A stretch of 64,000 bases of DNA from Utricularia gibba. Taxonomy: Eukaryota > Streptophyta > Magnoliopsida > Lamiales > Lentibulariaceae. Location of the stretch: positions 1,302,001 to 1,366,000 of the forward strand of contig CM007990.1 in the NCBI GenBank assembly GCA_002189035.1, written 5' to 3'. Position 1 is the stretch's first letter; each line of letters starts with the position of its first letter. Made by a program: the position numbers and the translations under genes. Below the pieces are notes generated by a model that made no database searches, was not told the DNA's origin, and saw only the letters and a program-made list of their open reading frames with translations. Shown piece by piece: positions 11,153-60,117 of the stretch.

Positions 11153-11527
11153 ATGGAATCCTCATCTAAGTCTCTCCATGGCGGTGAGGAGTGCTGCAGC
11201 AGCAGTGAGTCAGGCTGGACCAAATACATCGCTTCCCCGGACGACAATCGTTTGGTAGTTGAAGATGAAGAGGATCAGGGGAGGAGTACAGTGGATTAAG
11301 CCTACAAATCTGCAAGAAAGTCAAGGGAGAAGAGGAGGCAGAGAGTGATGATTCAATGGCTTCTGATGCCTCATCTGCTCCAAGCTATCAGGGGAGGTTA
11401 TATGTGAAGGAGGAGAAGAAGGAACACAAGGGAAAGCATCGTATGGGATCAAGGGGGTAGTGGAAGGGAAAAGGGCAAGTCTGTGCAACAAGCAACTACT
11501 GGTGGAAGAAGAGTTAGCAAGGTATAA
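11153..11527 (+). CDS. SOFL: SOB FIVE-LIKE (SOFL) protein, interrupted by two frame shifts
   Basis: Two family motifs are present but in different frames. SOFL-A (SSSESGWTKYIASP) is in the frame of the ATG at 11153. SOFL-B (DDSMASDASSAPS) is one frame earlier, from about 11282. A basic tail resembling the family C-terminus (EKGKSVQQATTGGRRVSKV) returns to the first frame after 11456. The changes fall at G-runs 11278-11281 (one base short) and 11453-11457 (one too many or two too few). Corrected length would be about 124 residues, normal for the family. SOFL proteins are small plant-only proteins; Arabidopsis SOB5/SOFL1/2 raise cytokinin levels. Whether the gene is broken or the sequence is wrong cannot be told here. 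Confidence 0.75.
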
Positions 11528-12320
11528 AAAGCAGGGTTTGTAGGTTTTGTTAGCTTGTTTCTCTTGTGTTTGTTGATTGATCTCCAAGTTCATGTGGACT
11601 GGTGTTAGTTATGGCTGAACATCTTTGAGGGTTAAATACCAAAGACTTCATGACAGATAATGCGTGCGTGTGATGCACTAAAAAGACAAGCCATTTCTAA
11701 AATAAAGCATGTCTAAGCAATACAAAAAAAACCACCCGCACAAGTTGCTATATACACGAGTACAATGCTGCGCTTTACTACTACCATACACCATCTTTCA
11801 TTCACATGCACAAATTACAAGACCAAAATGGTAAGTGCATCATCCCTTTTTAGACTTCAAAATCGCTACCACTGTCTTACAAAGTGGCTCGTGTATCGAG
11901 CAAGTTCGCTATTATGGGGCAGCAAATGATGCTTATGACAGCCGCTGCTAAGCATCACTGGTGACCATGAAGCGCAGTGATGCCCAGAAAAGAGAAGCAA
12001 TGGTCTCATAGAGACTGGATCCAGCATGCAGAAAACCAACAGTTGAAAAGCTCTATGGCTTATGTTAAGGCCTTTATCCAGAGTGGATATTGTTTCAACA
12101 ATGGCCTCCTGAAATAAGAGATCCATGCTCCTAAAGTAACCCCAACGTCAATATTCTAAATATTACTTGCAAGACTTCAGTGCATGGGCATTCATGGTTG
12201 TGTACCTGAGAGATTGTTCTCACGGTCAATATTACTTGAAAGTCTTCGTGCCCATGGAAGGATATGCAGGGATAGCTCCATTGTGGCATGACGCTGACTA
12301 AACCAGCATTCAAAACAATA
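11528..12320. other. Convergent spacer between SOFL and PPR genes
   Basis: It should hold the 3' UTRs of the two facing genes. No long or family-like reading frame was found; the two short minus-strand frames at 11866-12126 and 12131-12313 match nothing known to me. Confidence 0.4.
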
Positions 12321-14918
12321 TCATAACCCCAACTTCACATTTAAAACGTACACAACTGACTTGAGATGGATTTCGCCTACTCTGTCAATAGACTGGAGTA
12401 GAGTAGATACAACCTGTTGATCTGGCACGACTCCAGAAAATAACATCATCCGCAGGAAATCAAGAGCATCTATTAGCAATGATCTATTGCACAGTCTATT
12501 AATTACAGCACTATAATCTCTGATGGAAACTTCAAAACCTTTTTCAGCCATTTCCTGAAAGAGTACCTTGGCCTTCCAACAATCTCCTTTCACACAAAGT
12601 GCTTTTATTAGAGTAGTGTATGCGAGTTTTGAGAGATCGGCCTTTTGGTATCTGAGATCAGAAAACAGTCTTTCAGCGTTCCCAATATTGTGATGCATGC
12701 ACAAACCATTAATCAAAATGTTGTAAGTGACAGAATCAGGGAAGATGCTGCTTCGAATCATGTAATCATGCAATTGAAATGCAATTTGAGAATTTCTAGC
12801 TTTAAAAGAAGCCTGGATAAGAGCGTTATAAGTTATTTGATCTGGAGCAAGACCCTTATTTAGCATACTCTGGAGAACAACCAGTGACTGTTGCAGCCTT
12901 TTTTCCTTGCAAAGCCCTTTCATAACCACTGTGTAAGTTACATGATTCAATTGAATTCCATTTGCCACCATCTTACCAACCAGCTTAAAGATGTCATCCA
13001 AGGTTCCTCCTTCAGCATGTTTATTCATAAAAGTGGTGTAAGTCCTAACATTTGGAAGTAACTTGTGCATTTTCATGCACTGTACCCATTTTTCAGCATC
13101 TTCTAGTTCTTCATATTTCAGTGACCCATATATTAAGGAATTAAAGGTAACGACAGTTGGAGTGATCCCTTTACCAACCAAATCTCTGTACAGCTCTTTA
13201 GCCTCATCCAGGTCACCTCGTTTGACATACTCATGGATCATTATATTGTACAACACAACATCCTGAACACAACCAGTACTCGTCATGGCACTGAAATAAC
13301 ACCTTGCTTCAGATAGTCGTCTCCTCCTGCATAATCGCAACAAAAAGGATCTGCATTGAAAAGAGCTTGGAATGACTCTCATTAGACACAGCTTCTTGTA
13401 GTGCTGTATTGCCTCCTGAACTTTTCCCAGCTTGCAAAGACCAAGAATTATTGTAGTATAGATGAAGAAATCTGGGTGCCAACCAGCATCTTTGAAGACG
13501 GAAATTAATCTCAGGGCATCTTGTAGCCGACCACTTCTACACAAACTGATAACAAGCACCCGGTGTGATATGTGGTTCAACTGAAGGCCCTTAGACAGCA
13601 TCTCATCTCTCAGCCTAAGCCCTTCCTCAGCATTTCCAGTTTCGCAATGCAGACAAATTTGTAATGTGTAAGTGAGAAGATCAGGTTCTGACTTACTGCA
13701 CAGTATTTTCTGTGGAAACTTCCAAGTTCCATTTTTATACCAACCAGCCGAGATCCTCTGGCGAGAATATCATAAGTTACTTCATCAGGCCCCAATCCCT
13801 GTGTTTCCATGTCACTAGCAAAAGCCAATGCTTCACTATATGAACCGATGACACACAGGCCATTAATTAGAATATTATAACTATAAGCATCCGGAGCTAA
13901 TCCATACTTCAACATCATAGCAAAAAAGGATTTTGCAATATCTACAAAGCCCAATCTACAAAAACCTGACATCAGCGTGTTCAAATTAATAACCGAAGGT
14001 CCAGCCTCCCTCTGTTCTATCTCCTCTAAAAATGGAATCGCTTCATGAATCAAGGATTGGCTGAGCATCCCATCCAGGACGATGGAATGAGAATAGTCAG
14101 TTGGATGAAGACCAGCGGCTTCAATGTCATGGTAGACATCCCACATCATATCAGAATGCCTCAAGTTATGCAGCAAGCTATTGAATGTAAAAATTGAAGG
14201 CTGCATATCCACATCCTTCATCTCTGAGAGCACATAAAGGGCATCCTTCACCAGGTTGATCCTAGAGTAAACAAAGCAAAGCATATCCCATACCAAAGAG
14301 GTAGAATCGCAATCCCTGAATTTCGTACGAAGAAAATCACAAATAGAGGGTGCGGATCCAGAACCTGCCATGAAACACCAAATATCAATCCAGCAAATTT
14401 GGAGGGACTTTCCGTCCACATTTTCTAAGGAAAAACAAAACAGCTACAACCAGAACACGAAGAGACTTCTTCCATGGCAAAAATTAACTAAAGACAGGCA
14501 AAAGAATACCTTTTACCTGCACCAGAGCTTCCAAAAGGCGCCGCAATTCACGTAACCATCTCCTTTCTGCAAGGAGATGACTCACAAAAAGCTGAGAATA
14601 CAGCGAATGCCGAACTCCATACTCGTTCTCAAGCAGAAAAAAGAATCTTAGAACATCTCGAGACTCTAACTGCTCAACAATGGCATCTATCTCATCACTG
14701 CTCAATCTGGGAATTTCATTCTTGAACCAAGATGATTCAAATAACCCAAAAGAATTGCAAGCCTTGGGAAATAAACGAAAGTAAGCCACGATTCGCCCCA
14801 CCGCGTCGTTCTGCTGCGTATCCACCAATGCTGCAGCGCCGGCGTAGGTGAAAGGACTCTTCCGTATCAAATGCGAGTGGGGAAACAGAAGGCGTCGAAT
14901 GGCATGCGTTCGTAACAT
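12321..14918 (-). CDS. Pentatricopeptide repeat (PPR) protein, one apparent frame shift
   Basis: Exon 1 is 14510-14918 and exon 2 is 12321-14364; donor AAAAG|GTATTC and acceptor TGGCAG|GTTCTG keep the frame. The product has tandem P-type 35-residue repeats, for example GLAPDAYSYNILINGLC, GITPTVVTFNSLIYGS and SIFPDSVTYNILINGLC. The C-terminus LAYTTLIKALCVKGDC...VSIRDYSAVINRLC fits the remembered Arabidopsis At1g13630. P-class PPRs bind organelle RNA; the basic, Arg-rich N-terminus (MLRTHAIRRLLFPHS) suggests mitochondrial or plastid import. Around 13706-13709 (a T4 run on the plus strand) the frame slips: upstream reads GSFHRK, downstream reads ILCSKSEPDLLTYT. One extra base in the run restores an 817-residue protein. 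Confidence 0.88.
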
Positions 14919-16453
14919 CGAGCATCGTGGCCGACGCTGAAGGTGGCCGCAGAAGGCGCCAGAAAGTTCGGGCCACAGGTGTTGCAGTAGGGTTTAAGAG
15001 ATTAGGGGCAATTCAGCAGCATCGCAGCGATTTAGGGTTTATTCCCAAAAAACGACGTCGTACAATCACACACACATCAATGGGCTAAGATGCGGTGGCA
15101 AGTCCAGTATGCCACAATTTCTTACTGCAGTCCGAATATGTAATGGGCCGGCCCAGTTTGTGTTCTCAAATTAGGCCCAGGGAATTGGCAGTTAGTAACT
15201 ATTAACTAGGGTTACAGAGCTGCCCGTGGGCAGACAAGCGAGGAATCCAAGGTTCTTTCAAGTGGTAAGAATGGGATTCTCTCTCTGGTTGTTTGTTGGC
15301 GGTCTTCTCCTCACCCATGCATAATCCATCGTCACCACCTCTGATTTCTGCACTTCTTCATTCCATGCTTTGCATTTCCCTACTCCATTCCCACCTTCTT
15401 CTCCCTTTCCTGCCCCACCATCCAGAAAAATGGAGAGGAAAACGTGGAAGATCAGGCTTTTACGGTTTGTTTAGCCTTAGAATTCTGATAGACTTTTCAA
15501 AAGAGAGAATGATGTACCTGGAGAAGGTGAAGCTTGTTTCTTCATGGTGAAGTTGTCTGCCTGAGGGCAAAATCGTGTTGGGATGAGACAGCTGCATTTT
15601 ATCAGACAAGCAATGTAAATTTTGTTCCTCACAGTTGCTGATTCGTGAACTCTGAGGTTCTGCTGATTAGGGCTGGCTTCTTCATTGGTGGCAGGAACGG
15701 CTACATGAAAAGTGAACAAGTTATATGGCAAACAAGGGACACACTAGAGGAGCAATGGGAACTCATTACCAGAAGCAATCAGAAGCAGACAGCACAGGGC
15801 TACTTGAGCCAGCAATTCCATTACAAATAGAAGGAAGTAGCAGTCTTTGAAACTCGCTCTTAAGATGAAAGGAAGAGAGCAGAAGAGTCATGCATAGTAA
15901 AGGAAGGTAGTTATGGTGATGGTTTTTGTTCTACTCCAGTTGGTGGGACCTGGAAATCTCTAGTTTTTAGACAAACAAACAACTTTTATATGTAAAGCAA
16001 AAACCAGAAATGCAGAGTTCATTGGGGAGATGACTAATGATTCTTGGATGAATGCTCCCTTCAGTTAAGATTCAGGTCCCGACAATGAAATCTTACATGT
16101 CATCATATCCATAACGCATTTGCAAGGGATTCAGCTTCAGTTTTGGTTGGAAAGAAAAAAAGAAGGGGAATATAGTGAATAACAAACAGCTCTAGAACAT
16201 AGACCATGCCTCACAAAATTACACTACAGAAGAAGAGAAATATACAAACACCTATGAATTGATCAAGCACGAAGATTTCGTGGACAAGACCAACAAAATA
16301 ACAAAATAATGAAGTACAAGAAATTTATAAAGCCATCCTGGAGAAACAATTACGAATGAAGCAAACCAAGGCTACAGTATATTGACATGTATAGCAAAGA
16401 AACCAACGGATCTCTCTCTATATTCAACATGTATCTACATTGATATCACCAGA
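14919..16453. other. Spacer upstream of the PPR gene
   Basis: Bases 14919-15100 are the PPR promoter, including ACGACGTCGT at about 15052. The part from 15230 to 15900 is less AT-rich than other spacers and has several short plus-strand frames (for example 15645-15830) without family resemblance; it could be a non-coding transcript. From 15960 it is the 3' side of the next gene. Confidence 0.35.
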
Positions 16454-18078
16454 TTAAAATCTACAGCAGAAGATGCCAGATCTCCAGCCTCTGTGTTTCC
16501 TATAATGTCTACGATCGGCTTTTGCCATTTTGACAGGACTGCTATTCCATTCAGAGGGTAGTCTGCAAAATGTTTTCTGTGGTTAGTAAGACTGAGCTCC
16601 GTGGAATTCATGAGAGGCTAAGAATAGGAAGGAACCATACATCGGGAAGGCAAAAGATCTGCCACTTATACTGCCATCAGAGCGCATGGAGATGTTCCCT
16701 GGCTGTGGTATAGGTTCAATGTAGGCAACCAGATTCGCTTTTGAGAAGCTAGTCTCTCCCTCATCATATTTTCCTTGGTAGAGAACTGCATCATTAAGTG
16801 AGTTATCTTTCTCATGCTTGGCTTGCCCATCAGTGTTCTTGCTGCTGACATGTTGAGATACCCCATCAGGCGACACCGCATCCCGGGGTTTTCCATCCTT
16901 GCCTGGGGATTGCTGAGGGCCACTTCTGTGGATTACATTTTCCCCATTACCATTACTGGAATATGTTGAGGGGGTAAAATCAGGACTGCGGTCTGTTTGC
17001 TCATCTGCTGACAACCCTGCTACAGGCAATGCTGATATTTCGGAAGGAATCTGGTCAACCGCAGAGTATAAACCACGTTAACTCATCATGATTAATAGAG
17101 ACGTGCATGAAGAAAACAAAAGTTAGCTGTATAAGCCTCCTGGGAAAGTTGGTTTACCTTAGCTCCCTCGTCGCTGAAGGAGGTTAAAAAGGATCTGAAG
17201 ATTCTTGCAGTTCCATATGCTTGAGATGGAAGCTTACTACCTAGAAATGCATCATTCCTAGGAACATCAGACACTTTTTTGGCAGCTGTCTCTATGTTCG
17301 ATTCATGTTCAAGCACTGCGTTCACTGAACCATGGAATTTAGGTGCATCATGGCCAAAGGAGTTCGTTAGTTCGGACTTGAAACTTTCTTGAGCATTCAG
17401 TTGACCATTGGCATCATCGTCAGTGGAAGAACTCTCATAAGCATGACCTGGGGATCGATATGACACTGAAGGTTCCACATCAGATCCACCTTCTGTGCTA
17501 CCATATCTAAATGCGTCAGAAGAATTAGGAATGAAAGTGCTCGACTGATCATTCTTTGAACTTCCGACAGAAAACTTGTCCACCGGATCCACCTCGTCCA
17601 CACATATATCCTTCAAAACATGCTTGGTCATTCCTTCCCGGCTATCTACTGAATCCAATGTATCACATTCCAGTACCCTTTTGTCGCTATAGGATGCAAC
17701 ATCTGGCTGAATCGATGAAGTTGTCTTGCTGGAGTTCATATTGTCTAGACTATTCTGGCCTTTCTTCCTCTCACTAAAAACGTATAGTGATGAATTTGTA
17801 TTTCTCCCAATGCTTGGCTTGCGTGATAGCTCACTACGATATTCTGCTCCTGAAGAATCTCTGCTTCCATGTTCATCGCTAGCAGAAAAGTTGGTGGGAG
17901 AAGAGATCCAACTCGGTGCATCTCCACCTTCTGACTTGACAAATGGCCGAGCCGTGTCACCTTTATGTTCACAAGCTATCTCGTATGCTTCCTTACTTTC
18001 AGAAGTATAGGAATTAGCTTCGCCCCAGAGCGTCCCATTGCTGTAAATCATCGTGTTCTTGTTTCCTATCGATCTCAT
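16454..18078 (-). CDS. gar2-like protein of unknown function
   Basis: Exons 17158-18078, 16641-17050 and 16454-16562 total 1440 bases, 479 residues. Most of the protein is low-complexity and rich in Ser, Asp and Asn. The conserved part is the C-terminus: SGRSFAFPILPSEWNSSPVKM, then KADRRHYRKHRGWRSG and a final CCRF. This tail is typical of plant proteins annotated as 18S pre-ribosomal assembly protein gar2-related (At2g03810, from memory). That name comes from weak similarity to yeast gar2, and a role in ribosome assembly is unproven. The start at 18078 is the first ATG of the long frame. The frame runs on upstream to an acceptor (TTGCAG|CATCC near 18105), so a further upstream coding exon is possible. 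Confidence 0.78.
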
Positions 18079-19570
18079 ATCCCCTGCAGCTTGTTCATGG
18101 ATGCTGCAAGTATATGAAGACTGTTAAATCCTACAGTAACAAACTGGAATGCAGACAGATATGAATCATTACCAAATGTCGCATCAGTTGGAAGAGTCAG
18201 GAGAATCCACAAGTTTTATCTGGGAAGCATGCATTAGGCGAGGGTCGAGCAGAACATGTTCTATAAGAGGAAGAGTTAAAGCTAGCAAGTTCTCTTCATC
18301 ATGAACCACAAAGCTCATGGAAAAGTACACATACCTGACAATGCCGAATCCAACAGAAATGAGATTTTTTCTGGTAAAAAGCGCATGGTTTCTGTCACAA
18401 AGATCACCAAAATCAAAGGAAGTTGTACAATACACATTTAAATCACACACCAATGCATAGAAGTATGGTAGGAAAAAACGAATTGCGCATTGATAAGCAA
18501 CAGGCATACACAACAACAAACAACTCATACAACTGCCGTTCTTGATGTACTACTCATTTCCTCCCTAATTTACCAAAGCAAGCATTTTCTGTGAAAAGGG
18601 GACCCAATTCTTGAAGATGCGAAGCAAAAAGTAAAAAAAAAAAAACTTTAGGTGGAAAATGCGACACCATATTAGAATTTTTTTAATCACTGCAAGGGAG
18701 TAGAAAGCAGAGAGGTTCTCTAACAGGAGAATCTTCCTTTTTGTCAAAAGGTCACGGAAGAAGACAAGAAAATGTCCCAATTTTCCAAACATCCTGCAAA
18801 TTCTTGACACCCATGTATGAAGTGCTCCTCTTTTGAACCCATATCTCTTGACTTATCCCATTCGATTTTGTCACATGCCTCTTTCACTGACACGCACACC
18901 CACACACAATATTCGTCTAGATCTACTCCCACACATCATACCCTGCCGCTCATCCCTGTCCTAATCCCATGACCCAATTCAGATTTGCTACAATACAAGA
19001 AAACCACCTGGCGCAAGTGTCCTCTATTCCCAGAAACCCCAGTTCCTAAAGGTATCATAAGCCAGAAAAGCGTAAGCTTCCAGGGCATGGCAGGAAATCA
19101 ATTAACCTCTTTTCTGTCTTCCCTTGTTTTTCCACTGCCTTCTTTCAAACCCTATAGAAAAAAGCAAGAAATCAAAACCAAGCCAGTAATCTCTCTCAGA
19201 CATTTTAACAAACACAAAACAGATCCGCAACAAGAAACCACTGAAACGATCCAACATCAAAGGATCCCTACAACTCAGGTCATACAGCACCACCCCACAA
19301 GCCAAGAAAGAGAGACTAGAGTATAGGTGCGTGAAAGAGAAGCAACCTTCTCAAATTTAAGACCAAAAAAAGCACCCTCCTCCCCCGTTCAGACGGAGCT
19401 TGCCTCCCCGCCCCACCGGCCGTTACCTTGAAGCGTACAGGTACAGAGAGATACAAAGCTACAGATACAGATACACATAAATAGATACTCCCATTGCATC
19501 ACACAGACAGATGGAGACACCGAGACCCGCACTACTGCCACACAGAAAAGCAAAGCTCCCTTTATCGCCA
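18079..19570 (-). promoter_or_regulatory. Probable multi-exon 5' leader of the gar2-like gene
   Basis: The minus strand has an acceptor near 18105 and a candidate donor (ATTTG|GTAATG) near 18175. Several pyrimidine-rich tracts follow up to 19560, where the sequence turns AT-rich. A frame at 18184-18528 ends SPDSSN but shows no family motif. The exact leader structure is unresolved. Confidence 0.35.
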
Positions 19571-22500
19571 TAAAAACATTTATTTTTTCTCCTAAAAAAG
19601 GAAATTAAAAAAAGTCAACTTTTTTTGTTAAATAGGACGAGGTTGTGGTAGAAATTAGACAAAATGTACTGGCGAACAATTCAATAAACTGTCCCCTCAC
19701 ATTCACCCATCAAAATCAATCACTATATATGCTATTAAATAAATAAATATTTTTATATAAAAATATTTAATTATTTTTGGAAAAATGAATTTTTATTTTT
19801 TTTATTTATTATATATTTAAGTCCTCCCATTTTCCTACTTTTGGAGAATATAATTATTCTGATTATTCAACTTTTATTTTTTCCAATAATTAATATTAAG
19901 TGTTTGACACAACTTCAAATTCAATAAAAATAATTTTAGAATTAATTCTAAAACAAAACTAGTACTATTTTAGCTCTATATCAGAAACACTAAAGTATTC
20001 AATTTTTTGAGAAGATAATTGATTTCTGCTCCAATAAAAATTTAAATGATTTTAGAATCAGTTTTTCAGAATTGTTTTTTGAAGTTGCATCAGATAGACA
20101 TTAAATATTATTATTTTTATTAATATTAATGATGTGAAGATGAGAGAGAGAGGAGTTGGAGGGGCAAAAGGGTCATTAAGAGAGGAATAGGCGAACCGGA
20201 CAGCACCACCATCTCGAAAAAGAAAAGTTAGTCAGTGGGACCACCACGTGTTCAAAGAGAGGTGGGTAAGTGTTAATTTACCAGGCCCACCCTCGTATCC
20301 ATTTACCACTCTACCCTCAACTCACCACCACCCTTCCCATTAGTAACCGCCCCGGGGATCCATCATGAGACAGGTCTTTTGGTCCACATCTGTCTCAATT
20401 CTCATCCCTCCCCCTCCAAAAATGAAATATTCTAAAAAAAAGTAGCATTTAAAAGAAGTGGGTGTTCTGTTTTTTTTAATCTTTAATTAAATTATATAGA
20501 ATAAAATCAGTTTAAAGATTTTATTAATATATTTAATTTTTATACTTAAAACTAGATAGTCTCATAATATAAAATTATATTATAGATTTTAATATATTAA
20601 TTTGTATATTAAAAATTTCAATAGATGAAATTATTGTATAGTTTAAGTTGATAATGTAAATCTATTTTTGATGTTTATAGAAAGTGAATATTATAATTTT
20701 TTAATTAATGTTTTATTTAATCACTTAATCAGAAATTCAATCTTTTTTAAAAAGTTAATCATATAATCTAAATTTCTAATTTTCTCACGAAACATTATAA
20801 GATTGGAGTCTAAAAAATTAAACAAAATCACTTCAAAAAATTCTAAATTTCAAAAATCCATCTATTTTTTCAAATTTAAATCTACAAACTAGACTGCATT
20901 TTATCTTAAATTATATAAAATAAAGTTTTGATTTAAATTGTGTTTGTCCAATAAAATGATTTAAAAATAAATTATTAATAATTTTCTTCAATTAAATAAA
21001 TGTTCCACAAATTGTGCGGTGATCCGCAACACTAGGAACATGTTGCGCCAACTAGACAACGCGATGTCACCACAATGCACAGACAATCAGTTCGGATCCC
21101 CCTGTTCTTTGTCTGATCCGGATCCGGATCCGGGATTTTGTTGTAATGAATATGAGTATATTTTAGGAAAGTGAGTACTTGGATTACTGGATACGGGTTC
21201 GGGTATGTGAATGAGCAAATCATAAAATAGTCTCAATTATTATTTATTATAGTAAAAACTAATAACATAATAATATGTAATAAAATTAAAATAATGTATA
21301 GTATTACGAATTCATTTGATAGAATATTTTATAATTTACATGATCCTAAATATGAATGGAATTAATTTATAACAAAATAAATAAAAAAATATAACTTTTT
21401 TATAAGAAATATTACTTAATATATATTTATTCACCATGCATTTAATAAAAAGATTCATAATTTAAATTATACACAATCTAATAAAATACTAATAATTAAT
21501 TATTTATATTCAATTATTTATCATGTGTTAGCAAAAAATATAAATGTACTTGATGAAAATTAAAATAAAAAATTATTGAGATATCTAATATATGATATTA
21601 TATATTATCATATGGACACTCACCGCATAAATTATCAATATTTTTTACTTCAATCATTTTTATCCATATTGTTTAAATATCATTTATAATTGATCATTAA
21701 TATTTAAAAACTTAATATATTTGATCAATTGTTTAATAATGTAACAAAATTCATCATTTTTTTCAAACATTATTCGCTACCGACCACCACCGGCAGCACC
21801 CCTGCCATTTGGGGAACTGCCGGCAGTGGCGGTGGTCAGCGGCCGCCGAACAGTCCTCGGAGGTCGGTCGAAAATGGAAATATTGAATTAGGGAAAAAAT
21901 TAAGATTTAAAATTAGGAATTGATTTTGCCATTACTGTAAATAGTATAAACTATTTTTACTCAATTTTAAAACAGTAGGAATTAATTATAAATAGTTTTG
22001 AAATAATAGATACTAAAACACTATTTTAAAGATCAATTATACCATTGAAAAAAATACTAAAGAATATTGTTGTAATTTTTCCATTATTATATACACACGC
22101 CGAACGTGCATAAGATTCGTCCTATGTACGGGGGGAAGACATAAGCCTATTTCCATAAAACAGATTAAAAAATTGTAAAAAAATAATGATAATTTTCAAG
22201 TATTTTATTGGGGAAATGCATTATAATCCCTTAATTTTCAAAATCATGGTGGCGGCTTGTTACAGGCATAGGGAGGAAGCCCTCAACGCAAAAATAATTG
22301 ATGACAATGAGTTCTTCCCTTATTTAATTCATTAATTAATATCACAATGATTGAATTCTCACAATTTTATTTAAACCGCAAAAAAAAAAAAACGACATGG
22401 GATTCCATTTCGACACTGAATCAACTTTGGCACAAATTGAAAAACGAATGCGCGTTTTTCAAATTGTATGTAAGTGGTTTTTCATAATCATTCAATATTT

Positions 22501-26749: not shown

Positions 26750-26755
26750 AGTTAC
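26750..26755 (-). promoter_or_regulatory. Candidate TATA box of AP1
   Basis: TATAAA on the minus strand lies about 550 bases before the AP1 start codon. A CCATTGT word near 26656 fits the core of the LEAFY site (CCANTG followed by T or G). Both are short and may be chance matches. Confidence 0.3.
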
Positions 26756-26765
26756 CTCCTCACAG

Positions 26766-26768
<3 letters not shown>

Positions 26769-26799
<31 letters not shown>
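26769..26799. repeat. (TA)n microsatellite
   Basis: About fifteen uninterrupted TA units directly upstream of the AP1 promoter region. Confidence 0.95.
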
Positions 26800-26802
<3 letters not shown>

Positions 26803-26859
26803 AAAAAAAACCTAAAATTGATCTTTGACATGTATAAAATTTGTGTTATTTCTTATTAG

Positions 26860-40712: not shown

Positions 40713-42797
40713 ATGGCAACTCATTTTCTTGTGAAGACGCCATTCATTTCATTCTCCTCCTCCATTTCCTCGACCACGCAGCTTGCTGGGCCGTCGGCGC
40801 CATTACTCCGACGGAGATCCTTCTCTCGCGTACCATCGGTGCAAGCGAAGATCCGAGAGATTTTCATGCCTGCTCTGAGTTCCACTATGACCGAGGGCAA
40901 GATCGTGAGCTGGGTCAAATCCGAAGGGGACGTGTTAGCGAAGGGTGAAGCCGTTGTCGTTGTGGAATCGGATAAGGCGGATATGGATGTTGAGACATTC
41001 TACGATGGAATATTGGCTGCGATCGTCGTCAATGAAGGGGAAACGGCTCAAGTTGGTGCACCCATCGGGCTTTTAGCTGAAACCGAGGAGGAAATTGCGG
41101 AAGCCAAAGCGAAAGCCGCTGGGCAATCAGCGTCAGTCCCCGCCAATCCAGCGCCCAAAGCAGAGGCTGCTGCCGGGGCCGTCCCAGAACCTGTTGTTTC
41201 CCAGCCTACTCCTGCTGCTGCTGTTCCATCAACTCCGGGAAGGGTCGTGGCTACACCGTATGCGAAGATACTGGCGAAACAACACAAGGTGGATGTTGCT
41301 AAGTTGGTGGGCACTGGTCCGTTTGGCAGGATAACCGCGGAAGATGTGGAGAAAGCAGCCGGAATAAAACCCATTCCCAAGGCCAATGTAGTTCCCTCAG
41401 TGGCTGCTCCATCAGCTGCTGCTCCTGCTGCCCCTCCCGCGAAAGCTTCTAATTTTCCAGTGATTCCAGGATCAAGTGTCGTGCCTTTTACTACAATGCA
41501 AGCTGCAGTTGCCAAGAATATGGTTGAAAGCTTAAGTGTTCCCACTTTCAGAGTTGGATACCCGATCAACACTGACGCACTTGATGCCCTCTATGAAAAG
41601 GTTAGTTAACAAAATGTCCAATTTTTTTCCACAACTGCATAGCTTATACTACTCAAGTATGATATCCTTAGTGGTGATATTTAAGATGTGATTCGTTTGT
41701 GGAATGAGAAAAATGTAGAGCTATAGATGGATAACATGGAGTGTAATCATCACAATGTGATCAGAATTGACGTTCTTCTTTAGCTGAATTTTCTAACTTG
41801 AGGTATGCTATTTGGTGAATCACAGTTGAAGCCGAAAGGTGTAACCATGACAGCAATACTAGCAAAGGCTGCAGCAATGGCACTAGTTGTGCATCCAGTT
41901 GTGAACGCTACATGTAAAGATGGAAAAAGTTTTACGTACAACAGTAGTATAAATATTGCCGTTGCTGTAGCGATCAACGGTGGATTGATCACCCCCGTCC
42001 TCCAGGATGCTGATAAGGTGCAAGACTGCTTTTTTATATCGATTTCTCTGTTAGCATGTTTGTATTTCTTAGCACTTGCAAGCTTTTAACATTGTGGCCA
42101 CATCTATTCTTGAGTGTAGATGGATATCTATCTGCTGTCGAAGAAATGGAAGGAACTGGTAGAGAAAGCCCGAGCAAAGCAACTTCAGCCTCAGGAGTAC
42201 AACTCAGGTATGATCAGAAAACATTTCTTCTGGAGGGCGTTGGCTTGCTTGTCTCTCCATTTTTGACACATCAAAAGTTCTTCATTTTCTATATCTTAAC
42301 TGTGATACAAGATGGCATATTAATCACTGAAAAACTCTGAAGGACTCAAACAAAGATTTCTGTGGCCGCAGGGACATTTACTCTATCGAACCTCGGGATG
42401 TTTGGTGTAGATAAGTTTGACGCTATTCTTCCTCCAGGCCAGGTGAGGAAGAAGATCCAAAAACCCTAATTCAAAAGTCTTAATTTTGGCACTCTTCATG
42501 GTTTCTTTTTGATTATCAGGGCGCCATTATGGCTGTTGGGGCATCAAAACCTACTGTTATAGCTGATAAGGATGGATACTTCAGCGTTAAGAACAGGATG
42601 CTGGTACGTAAAATTTCTCCTGTGCAAGTTGGAATGACACTAGGAAGGATTAGTAGGAAAGTTCTAATTTTCCTTTCTGAACTTCTACACAGGTAAATGT
42701 TACAGCTGACCATCGAATCATTTACGGTGCTGATCTCGCTGATTTCCTGAAAACGTTTGCGAAGATCGTCGAGAACCCGGAAAGCTTGACCTTGTAG
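40713..42797 (+). CDS. LTA2: Plastid dihydrolipoyl acetyltransferase (E2 of pyruvate dehydrogenase)
   Basis: Six exons: 40713-41600, 41826-42017, 42120-42207, 42372-42442, 42520-42603, 42693-42797; 1428 bases, 475 residues. A Ser-rich transit peptide (about 45 residues) precedes one lipoyl domain with the lipoylated lysine at residue 88 (VVESDKADMDVE). An Ala/Pro linker leads to an E1/E3-binding domain (about 177-212, ATPYAKILAKQHKVD) and the catalytic domain. The active-site motif is ADHRIIYGADL, His about 448. The enzyme moves acetyl groups from lipoamide to CoA, feeding plastid fatty-acid synthesis. The single lipoyl domain and the DHRIxYG form fit Arabidopsis LTA2 (At3g25860). The start is the first ATG (MATHFLVKTPF). 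Confidence 0.96.
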
Positions 42798-48823: not shown

Positions 48824-49829
48824 TCAGGAATGGTGCTTTCCACATGTGTACATGTTTGCTTTTCACTGCGGTTCAGAGTTTTTTGACCGCCACAGTAACC
48901 GAAGGGAAAACCAGAGAGGAAAGGGATGATAAAGAGGGTGAAACAAGGGAGAGAGTAAAGGGTAGTAGGAGACAGAGGAAAGCAGGTATCTTTACTTCTC
49001 TTCAGAATGGATTTTTTTTACAAATGTGGAATTTTGGATTTGTCTGTCCGATTTCTCAATTGGGTTTCTTGAGATTTGCATTCTGATTCACTGGGTTTGT
49101 GTTAATGCGATCAACTGAGTGAGTTAGAGATTGGGGTCCTACGGATCTCGGGTTTTGATTTTTTTGTCGTTCTGATAAATATTGACCTTTGGTATCTCAT
49201 CGCTTTTCCGTATTCTCGATAGATAGGGTTTATCTTTTTGTCTCGTATTTAATTGTGTGGATTCCGATAGACCAGTGCTTCCTTTGCTTCACTTATTCGG
49301 CTTTTGGGGTTGTTGAAGCGTTGAGCGAAGAGGAAGAAGAAGAGGGCTTCTCGGTTTGAGGGTTTTGGAGATTAGTGATTTTATGTCGGCAAGCATTGAT
49401 TCCTTTGTTTGTTCTGGGGCTCCCTCGAAGCTCTTCTTTTCATCATCTTCTGCTCATTGCATTCCACAATTTCTCTGCTGCAATCTTCAGCAGAGCACCC
49501 AGTATTTCCTCGCCTCCGTTTCGATGCGTTTGAGGCCCAAAAGGTAAGCCATTAACCTTCATTTGGTGCTCTGAGGTTCCGATTTGTTGTGGTTTTGTGT
49601 AATTTTTTTATGGGCTTCTTGATAACCTGCAGGTTTTACTCTGGGACTGTTTTCTTTGGGGCTTATCACATAAACCGATTGTATGACCTTTTCCTATTCT
49701 TCAGAGATCACTTAACTGCGAGTCCTCAGTGAAAGGGCTTAGAATTTCTCTCTGTTTTTTTTCCCCTGTTTTTTCCTGTTGTGAGTGACATTTTTGTGGG
49801 CATTCTTGTTGAGGGAGTGTGTTAGAAAC
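48824..49829 (+). promoter_or_regulatory. 5' leader of CRF copy A with an intron and an upstream ORF
   Basis: Leader sequence runs to donor CAAAAG|GTAAGCC (after 49543); a strong acceptor is TTCTTCAG at 49704. An upstream ORF starts at 49383 (MSASIDSFVCSG) and, if spliced, ends at 49732 with LTASPQ, about 62 residues. It would lie entirely in the leader of the CRF mRNA. I recall that the CRF10-12 group in Arabidopsis has peptide-conserved upstream ORFs, but could not check it. Confidence 0.45.
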
Positions 49830-50731
49830 ATGCCGGGGCTTCGGGTTTCGACTCCGGTTCCATGTTACCATGAACCTATGAATAGAAAGCTGAGATTGGC
49901 AGCTGAAGCCAGACAGAAAGTTAAGAAAATCAGATTCGTTTGTAGTGATCCTTATGCTACAGACTCCTCAGATGATGAGATGGTTAATGTGAAGAAGATG
50001 AAACGTGCAATCAATGAAGTTTGCATTGTAGCCACTGATTCTCCCAGAAAGTTCCTACATGTGAGAGTTCCGTCAATGAGAGTAGCAATGGAGAGAAGAG
50101 CATTAAGAAGAAGTGTTTTGCTACAATCGAGAGCAACCAAGATCCTGAGACCGGAAAATATAGAGGTGTTCGTCGGCGTAAATGGGGAAAATGGGCTGCC
50201 GAGATACGTGATCCTATACAGCATAAGAGGGTCTGGTTGGGTACATACAGCACTGCTGATGAGGCATCCATGGCGTACGAGGCAAAGCGCCTCGAGTTCG
50301 AATCAATGGTAGATGGCAGCATAGACTCCTTGGAAAGAAGCAGCAATGAGGACAACAGAAATGATGATCCTGCTGCCGCATCCATGCCGGAAGACTCCTG
50401 TGGCAGCAATCAGAATCCAAGTGAGGAGATTACCACATTTGAGAAGAAACCTGTGCCCAGTTCTTGCTCAATGGATGAGGAACTGATGACTTTAGCAGAA
50501 ACAGGCACGGACATAGACATGGGATTCGAGCTCGATTCACTTCTACCATTTGATGACATGCCAATGGATGATCATCTGCCTATCTACGATCTGGGCAACT
50601 TGCCAGATTTCAGCTTTGATTCAGATTTCGGCCTCGACTTCGACCTTGAGTTTGGTGATTGCAGTGAAGCGGTTGTGAGTTCTTTCGTGGATGAGATCAG
50701 TGGAACACCCCTCAACGTTGCATGCCCTTAA
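49830..50731 (+). CDS. CRF: Cytokinin response factor (AP2/ERF), copy A, one apparent frame shift
   Basis: The N-terminal CRF domain ([19 protein letters not shown]) is in the frame of the ATG at 49830. The AP2 DNA-binding domain ([21 protein letters not shown] to [20 protein letters not shown]) and acidic tail are one frame earlier and end at 50731. The slip is at the C3 run 50043-50045: one more C joins ATDSP to QKVPTCESS, as in the family, giving 300 residues without introns, typical for CRFs. CRFs are cytokinin-inducible transcription factors that bind GCC-box-like DNA. The long form with [13 protein letters not shown] fits the CRF10-12 group (Arabidopsis At1g25470, At3g25890, from memory), which agrees with the SOG1, LTA2, RPL15 and GlnRS neighbours. 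Confidence 0.88.
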
Positions 50732-51637
50732 GTTTTGCTACCAGAGTGTTGTTGTGTTAGTATCTGTATCCTTCCGGCGCCCCTGGTTTTTGTTTGGCTG
50801 TCCAGCGGGTGCAATTCCTATTTACTTGTATTCACATTTGCTACCAGAGTTATTATCCGGAGTTATTTCGCAGCTCATGAATCCATGTCTTACACCAAGA
50901 CGACTGTTTCTCTGTGTAGTTCACCCTGCTGCGTTCATTTAATTTTGAAATTTTCACGAAGTATCCTTCGCTATGCTCGGGAAAAAGCCGCAAAATTTAC
51001 ATGATCAAAGGCATCGGAATGATGACCCCGATGAACTCACTCTTCTTCCTCATCCCATCCATCGCCCCTGAGTTTACTGTTCATCGTTCCAAGTGGAATC
51101 TAACGTTGGTTGGCGTACATGTATGACTTGACTTTGTTTTCGCAATGGGTAGCCATAAATGTTCGCAGGCTGATGCATGAATCTAACGTGGAATATTCAG
51201 AACGCCAGGATCTGTAGCATCCGCAGCTGCGCGAATCTCCGGCGAGCTGACGCTTGTCTGTGGATGGATATCCCATCCCCAGTGCCCACCTCCGCCGTGG
51301 TCGGCTCTGCTTCATCACGCTGCTCCGGTGGTCTCTCAGCGCAGACCCATCATTTTATTTTTAGATAGATTAGGCGGCCGGGCGGCGAGGACAAATGTTG
51401 CCGGAGGGAGCTGCCTGTCCCATGTGTGTCCTCCGACCGAATACTAGGGCTTAAAAATTAGTATTTAATTGGGGGCCGGTAACTAACACGCGATAATAAT
51501 CGTAATAAATAAATAAATAAATAAATAATTAGGGCGCGATCCGTCCATCTATTCTTCATCTGTCTACCGGTTTTGGTTGTAATAACACATCGAAAAATCC
51601 ATCTCCGACGGCTTCTCAAGGTTTCCTCCTCGTTTTC
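50732..51637. other. Spacer between the two CRF genes
   Basis: The left part is the 3' UTR of copy A; 51380-51637 is the promoter of copy B, with an (AAAT)n tract at about 51504-51528. No other gene seen. Confidence 0.5.
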
Positions 51638-52307
51638 ATGGACCGTCTGAATTGCAGAGGCGCCGACGTCACCAAAATCCGAGTTTCGTATTCAGACCCC
51701 TACGCCACCGACTCGTCTTCCGACGAATCCGACGCGCCCGGCTGCAATTTCAAGCGCAAAGTGCACGAGATTCTACTGCGGCGGCCTGCCTCGAGGAAGG
51801 GTGAGTTAATCGGGGTCAATTTCAAGAGGGTGCGGCGCTCGAAGGGGGACCGCGGCTTCGTGGGGTGAGGATGAGGAAGTGGGGGAAATACGCGGCAGAG
51901 ATCAGGGATCCGTTTTGCAAAGGGAAGCGTGTCTGGTTGGGCACGTTCGCCACCGCGGAGGAAGCGGCGGAGGCGTACGTCGCAAAGAAACGTGAGATTG
52001 AGGAGAAGATGCGGGCGGGACAGCAGAGCTCCGATGGGGCGAGCCAGAAATCCCCCTCTTCGGTCCTGGAGTCGGAGTCTTGGGAATCGCACGATTCCCG
52101 TGAGAAAAGCAAGGCTTCTGGCATCAAAGACGACTGCTTTGGTGGAAGCGAATCATGGGAATCGAAAAATTCCGGCGAATTTGGGGTTCTCCACGGCGTT
52201 CGTTTGGTAGACAAGAACGGGTTTCTCTTGGGGATTTCAGCCGTCTTGATGATCTCAGTATCTGCGCCGCCGCTGAATACGAAGCCATCACGGGCGCCTG
52301 TGAGTAG
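51638..52307 (+). CDS. CRF: Cytokinin response factor (AP2/ERF), copy B, two apparent frame shifts
   Basis: Intronless. The CRF domain ([18 protein letters not shown]) opens the frame at 51638. The AP2 domain ([15 protein letters not shown] to [22 protein letters not shown]) is one frame earlier from about 51860: a missing C after GGCTTC would turn FVG-stop into FRGVRMRK. The conserved tail ([23 protein letters not shown]) is one frame earlier again, after the G4 run at 52230-52233, and stops at 52305-52307. With both bases restored the protein is 223 residues, of ordinary CRF form. The intermediate stop codons would otherwise leave an N-terminal stub without AP2. It lies 906 bases after copy A on the same strand. 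Confidence 0.85.
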
Positions 52308-53301
52308 CGCGCATGAAATCTGACGTCGCCGTTTCTGTTTTATTTCTCCAAACAGAAATTTGCTTCTTCTTCCCTTTTTTTTTCTCGTTTCCTGTTCTGG
52401 GTCGATCCCTTTCATGTAAAATCTCACTGTACATAGTGATTCCAATGCTAACTTCTTCTTTTCCAAGCTTCTGTCTTCAATTCAAAGCACCCCGATCACA
52501 AAGTGCAGCAGCTAAGACCTTCTGCAAACTGCGACGCATAAACTTCACACGTACTCGCAGTATACATCGCGTCAGCATAAATTCCCAATCTTAGACGAGG
52601 TTAAGGTCATTGGGGTCTCCGGTGCTTTCCATTCACCATTACAAAGTTACGTTTTGACCCCTGATGAGAAAAGCAGAAACCTTGTGCAAGAAGGATGCAA
52701 CTCTGCAGCACCCCTGAGCTCATCCCAATGCAACTCGATTTCTCAGGCAATGGAGATGGTGCTACTTCGCTCACATTGCAAGCTTTGTCCCACAAAATCT
52801 TCATTACCCTTTTTCTCACCTGACAACATTACGTTCCTTGTGCATCTTATCAATCCCACCACTCAGTAAGTGTATGTGCTGCTTCTTCGTTTTCTGATGG
52901 TTGATATCTCTGTTCATAATTCCGCAGGTTGCATTTCTCCCCTCAGTAGCCTAATCTCCAGATTTACAGAGTCTACTCAGTAAGCCTCTCTGTCAAACAG
53001 TGTTTTACCCGTCGCCTGGTTCACGCTGCGGCACTAGGAATGTTACCGAGAACTACAACCGATGATTGAGTTACTGCCAAATGAGAGCAAATGGGCCTGA
53101 CAAATCATCCGATTCCTGCCTAACAGGTTTTTTTCTTCAATGAGATACCATGTCTGAAAAACGATAATGCATCTACTTTTTTGAGATTGGAGACTCATGA
53201 AGAGAGTGAGTAGATGATACACACTTTCAATAGGCAATAACCTGGTTCCTCTCAATGCAGAAAAAACAGGGATTTTTTCGGTCACTAGAATCTGGAGAAA
53301 A
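52308..53301. other. Convergent spacer after CRF copy B
   Basis: It should hold the 3' UTRs of CRF copy B and the DUF1218 gene. The frames at 52607-52869 show no family features. Nothing else was recognised. Confidence 0.45.
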
Positions 53302-54333
53302 TCATGCTTTTCCAGCCATCCTAATGGAGGGAATGCTAGCTTTTTTTGCAGTGGCTCTACTGAAGTACATGTAGTAATACACATTGAGAATCATGGTAGC
53401 CACAACAAAAACCGCACCCGCGATGAATATCCCCTTCCTCAGAGCCTCGCAAGAGAATCCATCTGCGTGGATGATGTCTCGGTACCTGGTGTGATAGCCG
53501 TTCGTCCTTGCACCGGAGATTAGGCATGCTTCAGACACTATAAATGTTACCCTGGAACAGACCAGAGATTCAGTTTTGGAGACTGAGGATCATGGAAAGA
53601 AGAAGAATTTGATGTATTACCATGAAGATAGAAAGTATATTATAGTCCAGGCACGGTTGCTACCAGGGGAGAGGGGCTGGCCAAAGCACATGCATCTTGT
53701 AACTCCCATGATAAGAGACTGGCTTGAAAGAGCAAACAAGACAGCCCCCACACCGTAACCAGAGGCAACATCAGAGTGGTAAACACAGTATGTCTTATTG
53801 CTGGATGCATCTGTTTGTAATGTGGCCTGCAGAGAAAGGAGCCATGAATCAAAATGCGAGTAGTGGAGGATCAAGCAGCAGCACATTAATGATGATTATC
53901 ACCCAGTTCAGAAGCTATCCAACGATTGAGATCCAAACCAGAGCACATGAATCCCGGTTAACCATTGCAGATCCAAGATCTCCACCCAGAAAACTCAGTG
54001 AAAATAAAAACAGCAAAATAGAGCAAGGACAATCTACCCCAACAATCAACCAACAAGTGGGAAACACCAACCACAGCACCTTTGGAAGCATGAAATCCCA
54101 ACGTGCCCATTTCTTGTAAAGGAGCAATCAAAAAGCAAGAAAAGTAAAAGCCACTCCAAAAATTAAACAAAACCCATCTCGAATCATAGCACAAAACAGT
54201 CAATGGTGAAGAAACAAAACACATAACTTACAGTGCTACGGCGCCGTTCAGCAGCGATGGCGAATCCAAATGCGGTTAAGGCGAGAACAATGACAAGAAG
54301 ATGAACAAGGGACGACCCTTTCTCATCCGCCAT
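53302..54333 (-). CDS. DUF1218 membrane protein
   Basis: Exons 54232-54333, 53621-53826 and 53302-53551; 558 bases, 185 residues. Four hydrophobic segments are seen, the first at once after MADEKGSS (LVHLLVIVLALTAFGFAIAAE). The family signature AAERRRST, the motif TYCVYHSDVASGYGVGA and the paired cysteines CMCFGQ and DGFSCEALRKG are present. Plant DUF1218 proteins (At1g13380 type, from memory) include modifiers of secondary-wall lignin; most are uncharacterised. The start ATG at 54333 is the only one before the first helix. It is complete. Confidence 0.9.
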
Positions 54334-55959
54334 TCCAAATTTCCAAGTCCCTCCCCCTTCCAGCAACGGATTGTTCAGTAAAAAAAAATGCAATACCTCC
54401 CTCTTGAGTACGCCGAAGCTTGCAACATTAGCAGCAACATCAAAATAGGTTAAAAGATTTTAGAATAGGATGGAATCCAGGGGGAGGCCCACGCGGAACA
54501 CCGCGCGTCTAGGGACGCGCACTTTGGATTTCTTTCTTTCTTTTTTAAATCATTCTTAGCTCAGAAAAGTGATCAATTTCAATTTGTTTCTTACGCGTTT
54601 AGATTACTGTTGAAAAATTATTATATATTGAAAATTTAAATATATTTAGAAGTATTTTTTAAAAAATATTTATTATAAAATTAAAAATTGATTTTATAAG
54701 GAAATTATATATTTACCTATATTTATTAACCAAGTAAAACCCAACGAAAGTAGTGAAAATTAAAACAAAATTAAAAAAAAAAAACCAACACTCTTTAAAC
54801 CACGAGGTGCCCTTTCCTTGCTTTCTGCTTTTAGAGAGGAGAATATAATGGATAAAGCACATTTTTTGTAATAAAGTATCTATTTCCATTTTGATTTCTT
54901 TAGTTATAATAAAAATTATATAAAATATATTTTATGTTATAAACTTAATGCAAATAAATTCAATTTTCCTATGTATAGTTTTAGTCCTACTCTACACATT
55001 ACCTTAAGTTGCTATTTTAGAATTCGATACTCATCATATATGATATTGTTCGTTTCAAACATCAAATCTTTTCAATTTTATATTTTCTTTATCTTTTACC
55101 TATCTATCCAAAAGTTCATTAGATCAAGCATGCTTAGTTTTAGAGTTTCTATAAAAGAATCTCTATTGTAATCGAGAAAAAGTTTCGTGCAAGATTTGTA
55201 TGATCATTTTATTCAATTTCATCCCCTACTTCATTCATAATCAACTTAGATTCGCGTAACCCCCACACCAATGCCCCATCCCACCCCACGCTTTAGTGTG
55301 AGTACTGTGTGTAATAAAGACCGTAATTAGAATATATTCCTTTTCCGGGGCATCAATTTGGCCTCGAATTCCTCATAAAATGACAACACACACCCACAAA
55401 AATAACTATTCACTTCTATCCCCACAACCACTTTCAATATTTAATTATCATGTATTCAACTCTTTTTATAATAAATTTAATCTGTATAAATTCATTATAA
55501 AAATATTATAAAGAATACATTATCCAACATATAATGTTTCTAAATTTAAGTTTTCTTATTTTTAATTGATTAAGTACTAGATATAATTAATAATTATTAA
55601 TGAAAATTTTCATTAAATTTTTAAATATTCAATGACTACTAATGCTAATTATTTCAAATACTACCAATTGCCCTTTGGAATTGAATTGCAAATTCTAAAA
55701 ACTGGCAATAGAATCAACAATTTAATAGTATTTAACAAACGCCCCCTCAAGGTTCAGGTATTCACAAAAGTGAACCGGACAACACTCACACGTCTTTTGA
55801 ACTTTGAAGACGACCCTATGCTCAACGGGGCCCACTTGCGCCCGCCTAAGATGACCCGATTATTGTCTTGTCTCGAATACTGCGATTATCTTACACAGTT
55901 TCACAAATCCTCGTTAATTACAATTTAGACCCACATTTTTCCTTTATTTACACACACCT
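54334..55959. other. AT-rich spacer
   Basis: 54334-54540 is the DUF1218 promoter. 54600-55660 is AT-rich. Frames such as 54971-55171 and 55632-55928 lack family features. From 55740 the sequence is the 3' flank of the next gene. Confidence 0.45.
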
Positions 55960-56345
55960 CTACGCCAAGGCGGCGATGCCCATTTTGCCGCAGTCGAACC
56001 CTTCGATTCTGACCGCAGGGCTGTTTCCGAAGCTGGACCGGGGACACGATTTCTCGTCGCCGAAACGGGCGTCTTGGATCACGGGGTTGGCGACTCGAAC
56101 TGGAGGAGACCCGGCGAAAAACGGCGGCGAAGGACCGGATTGATCGGATTCGCAGTCACCCTGATGGAAAAGATATCAACTTTAATCGCCTGTTTCAAAA
56201 TAAGAGACTCAAAATCAACAGATGAACTTTTAAATACCTTGAGCAGGAATATCTCCAGCAATTCATCGCTGGCCGCAGCGAAAAGAGGTACGACACGGCG
56301 GGGCTTCGGGCAAACGACGTTCTCCGGTATAGCGTAGATCGTCAT
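55960..56345 (-). CDS. Small conserved plant protein of unknown function
   Basis: Exons 56238-56345 and 55960-56160 give 309 bases, 102 residues. The N-terminal half (MTIYAIPENVVCPKPRRVVP) and the motif VANPVIQDARFGDEK followed by AVRIEGFDC are shared, as I remember, by a family of about 100-residue plant proteins (At1g13390/At1g68490). The Arabidopsis label 'translocase subunit secA' for this family is not supported by anything in the sequence. No signal or membrane segment is seen. The DUF1218 gene next door has the same neighbour in Arabidopsis, which supports the call. Confidence 0.8.
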
Positions 56346-56582
56346 TTTTTCCCCCGCTTCTTGATCTCAGATCCTCTAACTGTTGAAAAAACAGCTACAA
56401 ATCAAAATTGGAACAGATCTGCGCATACCCAACAAAAGAAAACTCAAACCAGCAAACCCAGAAAGGATTCGGGTCACCTCCTTTTACCTGAAAAACAAGA
56501 GAAAAAGGCCCTTCTCTTCGATCCCTCCCCGTTCTGCGAGCAGGAGGAGGAGGAGGAATGGAGGGATCTGGGAGGTGTGGAA

Positions 56583-56598
56583 TTTATATATACACGTG
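56583..56598 (-). promoter_or_regulatory. TATA box with adjacent G-box
   Basis: On the minus strand CACGTG (56593-56598) directly precedes TATATATAAA (56583-56592), about 240 bases before the start codon of the small conserved gene. G-boxes bind bZIP or bHLH factors, so light or ABA control is possible but unproven. Confidence 0.55.
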
Positions 56599-56656
56599 AC
56601 GAATTCAGAGTGGAGGAGGACTTCCTTGTCGGCCAGCTAATTAATTTTTTGTGCGA

Positions 56657-56669
56657 GGGGGGGGGGGGG
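56657..56669 (+). repeat. Poly-G run
   Basis: Thirteen G in a row, unusual in this AT-rich genome and error-prone in any sequencing method. Confidence 0.9.
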
Positions 56670-58045
56670 ACACTTTCTCCATCCGTATCAACATTCAAAA
56701 CAGTTTTCCCGGGTCGACCCGTTTGAAATCACAGAATTTAAAACGGGTCGGGTCCACTGCCCGCCGGGTGTTGTGGCAATTAATTTGTGTAATTTTTTGA
56801 CTTTGTATGATGAAGGAAAATGACGGAAGGCCAAGGGAATTGACAAACAAAAATAAATAAACAAAGTTGGATGTCCATTTTTGTCATGAACAATTATGAC
56901 TCCCCCTCTTGACATAGAAAACGGTTATTTGTCAAATTGACAGTTGCTTGCATTTTTACTTCGCGGTAAATGACAAAAAAGAAAAAAAAATGGTTACTTG
57001 TCCATTTGCACCAAAGTCTATGCCACCAGAATCCCACATCATTGGTTACAAGGATGACTCTATAACGGAGTTTACTTGATATAAAACTCTAATATAATGT
57101 ATGGTTGATGTAAATGAGATAAAATGGATTTAATTTATTTGAGTTTAAATACAATTGATGTATTGGGATTAATTTTTCAAGTAGTGTTTAATTATTAGGA
57201 TTAGAAATGAGATTAATTAGTTTTAAGTAAAATAAATGAAGGATGTGACTTTAAATAAATCCATGTGCATATGATTAAAAAAACTCTATAATCTCAAATT
57301 TGTTTAAATCTATCAATTGAGCATCTTATAATTTATAATCCTTTTTTTAAACTTATATAATTCCATAAACCAAACAGAAACAATCTCAAGATGGATGATC
57401 ATTTTGGTTCAAAAATGAAGAAAAAAAATGTAAAATCAAAAAAGTTAAAATTTTACATAGAGATAGTAACCAGGGTTTGGGATAATTTAAAAATCTGACC
57501 TACTTTTCATGTGTTTGAAAAACTAACCACCTATGCTATAATTTTTTCATTCCAAATTTGTAAAGTAATTGTCTACTTGATTAGATCTCAAATTTAATCC
57601 ATCTTTCTAAAACCCTGATGCTCCATTTTTTTTCTTTCTTAATTTTTGTAATTGTAGCTTTAGGATCCAAATCAAAATCTTTCCATGATCATAAAAAGGA
57701 TGATTCAAAAACTACTTTTCTATAATATATGTAAAAAAATACTATTTTTTATCTTAATATATGAATTTGTAGGTATTCAAAAAGCTTTTAGAGTAAAAAA
57801 TCATTAAGATTCTTGACTTTTTACCCCCTATAGTTTGATTAAAAAAAAGCTTTAACTACAAAAGATCTTAGGGGGATGTAAACATAGTCAAAATGATTGA
57901 ATGCGAAATTTAGGGGCAAGAAAGCTATGGAGGCCAATCAAATCCCAGCGGTCCACTTCCATGATTCCATCTATCTAACTTGAGGAGTTGTCCCCAAGCA
58001 CTTAACCACCTTGTTACAGCAGGAAGGAGAAGGGGAGGACAACAT
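56670..58045. other. AT-rich spacer
   Basis: It has no coding signs. A stretch at 57115-57210 repeats the 32.3-kb repeat, and AATCCCACATCATTGG at about 57030 recalls the 31.6-kb direct repeat. Confidence 0.45.
57115..57210 (+). repeat. Second dispersed repeat, copy near 57.1 kb
   Basis: GATAAAATGGATTTAATTTA, TTTGAGTTTAAATACA, TTGGGATTAATTTTT and GTGTTTAATTA follow in the same order as at 32300-32385. Confidence 0.6.
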
Positions 58046-58445
58046 CCTCCCCTTTAACTCAATGCCATGAATCCTAGAAGAATATTTCTCCTAGATATTG
58101 TCTACTGAAGCAAGAGTAGGAAAAAATGGAAGGGAATATGAGATGGATGGGAACTTTGCATGTCTTCCTTGAGAAAAATCAGTTTACATGTGGATTGTAG
58201 TGATGAGGATTAGGAAGCTGTGGTACCTGATTCAGAGGAAGCACATCCCCCTCTTTAACACAATGCCATGAATCCTAGAAGAATATTTCTCCTAGATACT
58301 GTCTACTGAACCAAGAGTAGGTAGAAAAAATGGAAGGGAATATGAGATGGATGGGAACTTTGCATGTCTTCCTTGAAAAAATCAGTTTACATGTGGATTG
58401 CAGTGATGAGGATTAGGAAGCTGTGGTACCTGATTCAGAGGAAGC
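58046..58445. repeat. Tandem duplication of the 3' end of RPL15, about 200 bases
   Basis: The outer copy is about 58046-58242 and the gene-proximal copy about 58246-58445, over 90 percent alike by eye, with an offset of about 201 bases. On the minus strand each copy begins with the codons for [10 protein letters not shown] and the stop, then the 3' UTR. Only the proximal copy continues the RPL15 frame; the outer one is a detached second 3' end. Confidence 0.92.
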
Positions 58446-60117
58446 TGCCCTCTTCTTAGCGAAATATGCTTCAGCACGAGCGAGGTTCTTGGCTACGGAT
58501 GGTTTTACCCACTTCCTCCGGCCAGGTAGAATTGTCATGGAGCAGCCGGCTTCTTCGAGTTTTGCCTTTGCTGATGCGGAGAAGGCGCGGGCCTTGAAGT
58601 TGAGCTTCGTGCTGAGTTCCCCATCTCCGAGTATCTGCGGCAACGGTTGAGAGTTCACAGTGAAACTGAAGAAAATCTTGATGGTGAAGTAAATGGGAAG
58701 CGAGTGTTGCCTTAAGTGGCAGCCTCCTATCTCTTCCGGAAGGTTTGATGAGGCCCCTTTGCTTCAATGACTCCAGTGAAACTTCTTCTCCTTCTTGGAA
58801 TCCAGCTTCTTCTATATCCTTCAAGTTGATGGGGACATACTTGGGCAATCCGGCATGCATCCCTGAAAGATTCAACAGGATTAGAAAGTTCAATTGTCCT
58901 GCTAGAAATCAGTATCTTCCGTGGGTTGCGTTGAACCAAGATGAAGCATAACAAAGCAGTGAAAGAAATCTAATGGGTTGAAATAAAAGAGCCATGAATA
59001 CAGGATGAACTTAATACAACGAAACACTCAAGATTACAATAATTTTAGAGCCATAGTTTCGGAGCTACATTAACCAACTACAAGTCATGGATGATGGAAG
59101 CCTACCACATAACTACATAAAGCCACCTACAATCTGGCAACAAACAACTCGACTTCTAGTGTTTATCCAGCTTTAATAAAGGTGCTGTATACCCCAATTC
59201 TTCTTCAAAACGTTCAACACAAGGAGCCCTATGAAAAGCTTTCGGTATTTCAATATCTTATCCCACCATATGCTTTCGACACTCAACGAACTGTACTTGA
59301 TGCAGAAGCCATAACCATGATACAGTCTTACAACATGGAACATCATGATTTCCCAAAATAATCCAGAAACACTCGAGAAATAACCTTCAACATTCTCATT
59401 AGCACCTTCAAAAACTCTACTTTGTTTTCTGGGACAACTAAATACTTCAGTGAAAAAAGAAAAACTGGATAAACCGTCATCATGCGAACACTTAAAGCGC
59501 CAACCTTGCAATAATCATTGTATTAAAAAAAACAACAAATAAAGAAGATATGCAATTCAGAGAAACAAGCATTACCCCAGCAATCCCTCTGAGCTTGGGA
59601 ATCCTTCGGTATAAAGGCATTTGTCCACCTTCGAATCCCTTACGAACACCAGGCCCAGACCTCGATTTCTGACCCCTCATACCGAATCCACAGCTGCCCC
59701 CTTGCCCAGCAGCATGACCACGCCCCTTTCTTTTAGCCGTCCTCCTCGACCCTGGCTGCGGACCTAAGTTATTCAGCCGGAACCGCACAGCTTGCGAACT
59801 CGCAGCATTTTCTTGCACTCCAGAAGCAGCGTCAGCTGCACAGTGAACTACAAGGGAGTGTCCCCTACTTATTTCCTGATTCTTAAGCTTAATGACCGGA
59901 ACCAGAAATGGCTTCGGCTTCAATGACCTCACATTCCCCTATTTGATAGACAACTCTTTAAATCATCCACCGGTGCAGAATTCAAGCAGAGGATTTCCCC
60001 CCTGACTAGGATAACGGAAGAAATCCAGTTCATTACCTGAAAATCCGAAGCCAGGCGGCGGCGCGGCAAGGCTCCGGTCGGAGGAGCAGGCGTGGATAGA
60101 AAGAGCACTGAGGCCAT
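58413..60117 (-). CDS. RPL15: Plastid ribosomal protein L15, one apparent frame shift
   Basis: Four exons: 60037-60117, 59576-59938, 58711-58862, 58413-58634. The N-terminus ([13 protein letters not shown]) is a plastid transit peptide. The mature L15 core is clear: [92 protein letters not shown]. It is part of the large subunit of the chloroplast ribosome. The exon 2/3 junction is out of frame by one base: exon 2 ends GCTGGG|GTAATG, and one more G in the run (plus-strand C4 at 59575-59578) restores IAGGMHAGLP, as in Arabidopsis At3g25920 (from memory), and 272 residues. Intron 3 (58635-58710) begins GC instead of GT. Confidence 0.93.

Follow-up and report, generated by a model that had tools for sequence, protein, structure and literature searches.

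Two reports on assemblies built from long reads only (PMC8812927, PMC12007338) describe residual homopolymer indels that fragment genes. The 64,000-nucleotide stretch of the Utricularia gibba genome analysed here (the window; C2:1302001-1366000, in an assembly of 100.09 Mb and 516 contigs) resembles the errors described there in its single-base indels in homopolymers, its conserved proteins spread over several frames and its duplicate contigs that differ by indels only. It differs in that the breaks are patchy here, and about ten times denser than in PPR genes sampled from the same assembly. A second known process for comparison is gene loss after polyploidy (fractionation), which does occur in the same homoeologous block, where the relic of an FLX-like gene lies at ~52.66-53.05 kb. 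That relic carries many large deletions, whereas the five genes considered here have only breaks of the single-base type and show purifying selection (omega for SOFL and the CRFs). Comparison of the sequences leads us to conclude, with a probability of roughly 0.93, that the breaks arose as errors in the consensus of a plant assembly made from long reads alone, and that the plant itself very probably has all five genes, which are ordinary ones, intact. Read in this way, the frame breaks are an assembly artefact without new biology.

Seven frame changes in five genes

An earlier note on this DNA had reported seven frame changes across five genes (SOFL, PPR, CRF-A, CRF-B and plastid uL15, or RPL15), and all seven are present in the printed sequence. 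It had ascribed six of them to the loss of one base, and 6/7 are indeed net -1; the exception, as it had also recognised, is the second change in SOFL, which is something other than a one-base loss. The SOFL (SOB-five-like) gene (11153..11524, forward strand) exits its first frame at ~11276-11283, with a net change of -1 in a GGGG run, and returns to it at ~11449-11459 through a change of net +1 or -2 in a GGGGG run; all three pieces align to an open 133-codon homoeolog at C451:2965764.

The P-type PPR gene (12321..14918, reverse strand), whose start and single intron near 14380-14525 were read by eye, carries PPR motifs on both sides of its break in different frames, with one net -1 frame change at ~13707-13735. 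The T5 run near 13731-13735, ~25 bases away from the previously proposed position 13707, fits the register of the 35-residue motifs better (translations judged by eye). A DNA search with this gene matched only the gene itself.

CRF-A (49830..50731, forward strand), a cytokinin response factor type AP2 gene recognised by its AP2 Pfam match and by alignment to a paralogue on C142, passes from frame +3 to frame +2 between 50036 and 50069, a net change of -1 relative to that intact 283-aa paralogue. CRF-B, also an AP2 gene (51638..52309, forward strand), changes from +2 to +1 at ~51862-51867 and from +1 to +3 at ~52228-52233, each time by net -1 in a GGGG run, and its intact 222-aa homoeolog on C451 aligns across both sites with zero residues gained or lost. 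The four-exon gene for plastid ribosomal protein uL15c (RPL15; 58413..60117, reverse strand) was identified by the similarity of exon 2 to spinach uL15c (PDB) and by a Ribosomal_L27A domain in the last exon. When its exon 2 is read as far as the GT of the donor, the phase is off by one base from that of exon 3, and the site is the run 59573-59576. The last intron of this gene (58635-58707, reverse strand), read by eye, apparently starts with GC and not GT (a GC-AG intron). The assignment of the breaks to homopolymers holds for CRF-B, SOFL and RPL15, where they fall in runs of 4-5; for CRF-A the exact position is uncertain.

Selection and the possibility of recent gene loss

The most serious rival, though an improbable one, is that these are very recent real pseudogenes, copies in a homoeologous block (C2 vs C451) that were lost after whole-genome duplication through small homopolymer indels. 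Such loss would be tolerable for SOFL and CRF-B, which have open homoeologs on C451, and for CRF-A there is a paralogue on C142. True loss also exists in the block, in the form of the FLX-like relic and perhaps of a C451 copy of the gene at 16.4-18.7 kb, whose frame shifts and whose splice donor differs. The break rate in the window, about ten times that of the sampled PPR genes elsewhere, and the second SOFL change, which is not a one-base loss, both count against consensus error.

Against this stands the manner in which the genes are broken. None of the five genes was seen to carry a nonsense substitution or a large deletion, and no in-frame nonsense occurs inside the segments aligned to intact relatives. 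We computed omega for SOFL, CRF-A and CRF-B, obtaining 0.14 overall for SOFL against its homoeolog, 0.24 for the whole of CRF-B against its C451 homoeolog (by segment 0.29, 0.21 and 0.12), and 0.34 and 0.12 for CRF-A against its paralogue, the last two values being rough as dS is near saturation. The segments on either side of the breaks in these three genes are thus under purifying selection, each in its own frame, which supports consensus error, and low omega is at the same time compatible with very recent inactivation. RPL15 fits gene loss poorly, since no further close copy of it was found, and C120, the duplicate contig described below, is intact at the site; a probe of the genome with the uL15c exon found only C2, the duplicate contig C120 and a distant 52% match.

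A true relic can be inspected directly beside CRF-B, and it looks very unlike the broken genes. The decayed FLX-like coiled-coil gene (52660..53050, reverse strand) shows many deletions when set against an open frame of 178 aa on C451 (3291-3893, reverse strand, of the C451 piece examined), and we read it as a real loss after duplication, with a pattern that is not that of the five genes. Relatives in the rest of the genome are for the most part intact, and nearly all AP2 relatives are free of internal stops in their frames. A variant in which a real local burst of frameshifting indels is inactivating a cluster of duplicated regulatory genes, SOFL, CRF-A and CRF-B, in the homoeologous block, leaving RPL15 as the only consensus error, is very improbable. 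The earlier preference for long-read consensus error over five pseudogenes is supported by purifying selection and mostly intact relatives, and further by differences between duplicate contigs that are almost only homopolymer indels.

Duplicate contigs and the RPL15 break

The part of the window at 58820..64000 (forward strand) is duplicated by contig C120, which stays near-identical beyond the end of the window as far as coordinate ~66600. Over these 7.8 kb (58820-66600) C120 and C2 differ by 1 substitution and 9 indels, with 9/9 indels in homopolymers, and the shorter member is C2 in three cases and C120 in six. The RPL15 break is exactly one of the nine, and at this site C120 has exon 2 in phase with exon 3. 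Direct demonstration of an artefact is limited to RPL15; for the six other sites we infer the true sequence, on an indirect basis. A second duplicate pair, C6/C451, has 0 substitutions and 12 indels over 6861 aligned bases, and the indel-only differences of the two pairs together indicate that the assembly does make such errors, at ~1-2 differences per kb per duplicate pair. Comparison of duplicate contigs in this manner provides a read-free gauge of consensus error (0-1 substitutions vs 9-12 indels per 7-8 kb).

It is highly unlikely that C2 and C120 are instead two haplotypes, one carrying a broken and the other an intact allele, with the breaks being heterozygous nulls. The two contigs do truly differ as haplotypes beyond coordinate 66600, where 4.2 kb hold 136 substitutions and 44 indels, but near RPL15 the 1 substitution and 9 homopolymer indels are unlike such divergence (substitution:indel contrast of 1:9 vs 136:44, Fisher p 5e-5). 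From 66600 to 92000, beyond the window, C120 is a diverged second haplotype on a separate contig, with 88-98% identity by alignment block. Equally improbable is the idea that unrecognised introns or programmed ribosomal frameshifting carry reading across the breaks, for although most of the breaks fall within short runs and introns are present in PPR and RPL15, at both CRF-B sites the aligned frames either meet end to end or share one base, leaving no room for an intron, the C451 homoeolog of CRF-B reads straight through, and independent occurrence in several unrelated genes would be required.

A patchy consensus

Under consensus error, the errors are patchy and not general, as four other genes in the window are without a break. 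The six-exon TLC-domain (LAG1/LOH-like) gene (6488..8055, reverse strand) has a TLC domain and a 927-nt spliced frame without stops, and an extra break suspected in it proved to be an intron. The six-exon gene for a plastid-type dihydrolipoamide acyltransferase (E2; 40713..42797, forward strand), with Lipoyl, E3-binding and 2-oxoacid_dh domains, has an unbroken 1428-nt spliced frame. No break was found in 681 nt of SOG1-like NAC sequence (the two exons that were checked), nor in the window copy of the gene at 16.4-18.7 kb, where a break suspected at ~17.1 kb was dismissed as an intron; the odd features there belong to the C451 copy. This copy (C451:2970460-2973110) has a frame change, a stop and an altered splice donor, whereas the window copy is open. 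This may mean that it is the other homoeolog that was lost, or that these are further consensus errors.

In the window, the break rate is ~0.7 per kb of the coding sequence that was checked (7 in ~10 kb, a total obtained partly by eye). The motif tracts of 24 PPR loci elsewhere in the assembly, scanned on both strands, add up to 34.3 kb and contain 2 breaks, or ~0.06 per kb (about 1 per 17 kb). The difference between the two rates has a binomial p of ~0.0008 (10.3 kb), a post hoc value as the window was chosen for its breaks. A uniformly poor assembly was rejected on this low rate outside the window, and because in 69 PPR genes the intervals from one listed motif to the next are free of frame changes.

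We propose that, in patches of C2 where polishing was poor, homopolymer runs lost one base in the consensus and that one run probably gained one. From 58820 onward, reads would match C2 and C120 equally and leave the polisher little uniquely mapped evidence, which is a likely reason for the errors there; redundancy with C120 can explain this patch, including the RPL15 site. In the two other patches, 11-14 kb and 50-52 kb, a DNA search of the genome found no duplicate contig for the PPR and CRF sites, a negative that rests on shorter queries as 12.5-kb queries missed even the window itself, and on this search contig duplication was rejected as the cause there. Possible causes in these two patches are low coverage, or duplicate contigs that were dropped before the assembly was released.

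The sole use of these observations is as a warning for annotation: patchy poor consensus can inflate counts of gene loss taken from such assemblies. Outside the window, broken PPR genes were located at C1:797014-800163 and C2:3567016-3570165, each with a single net -1 change of the kind that the window shows.
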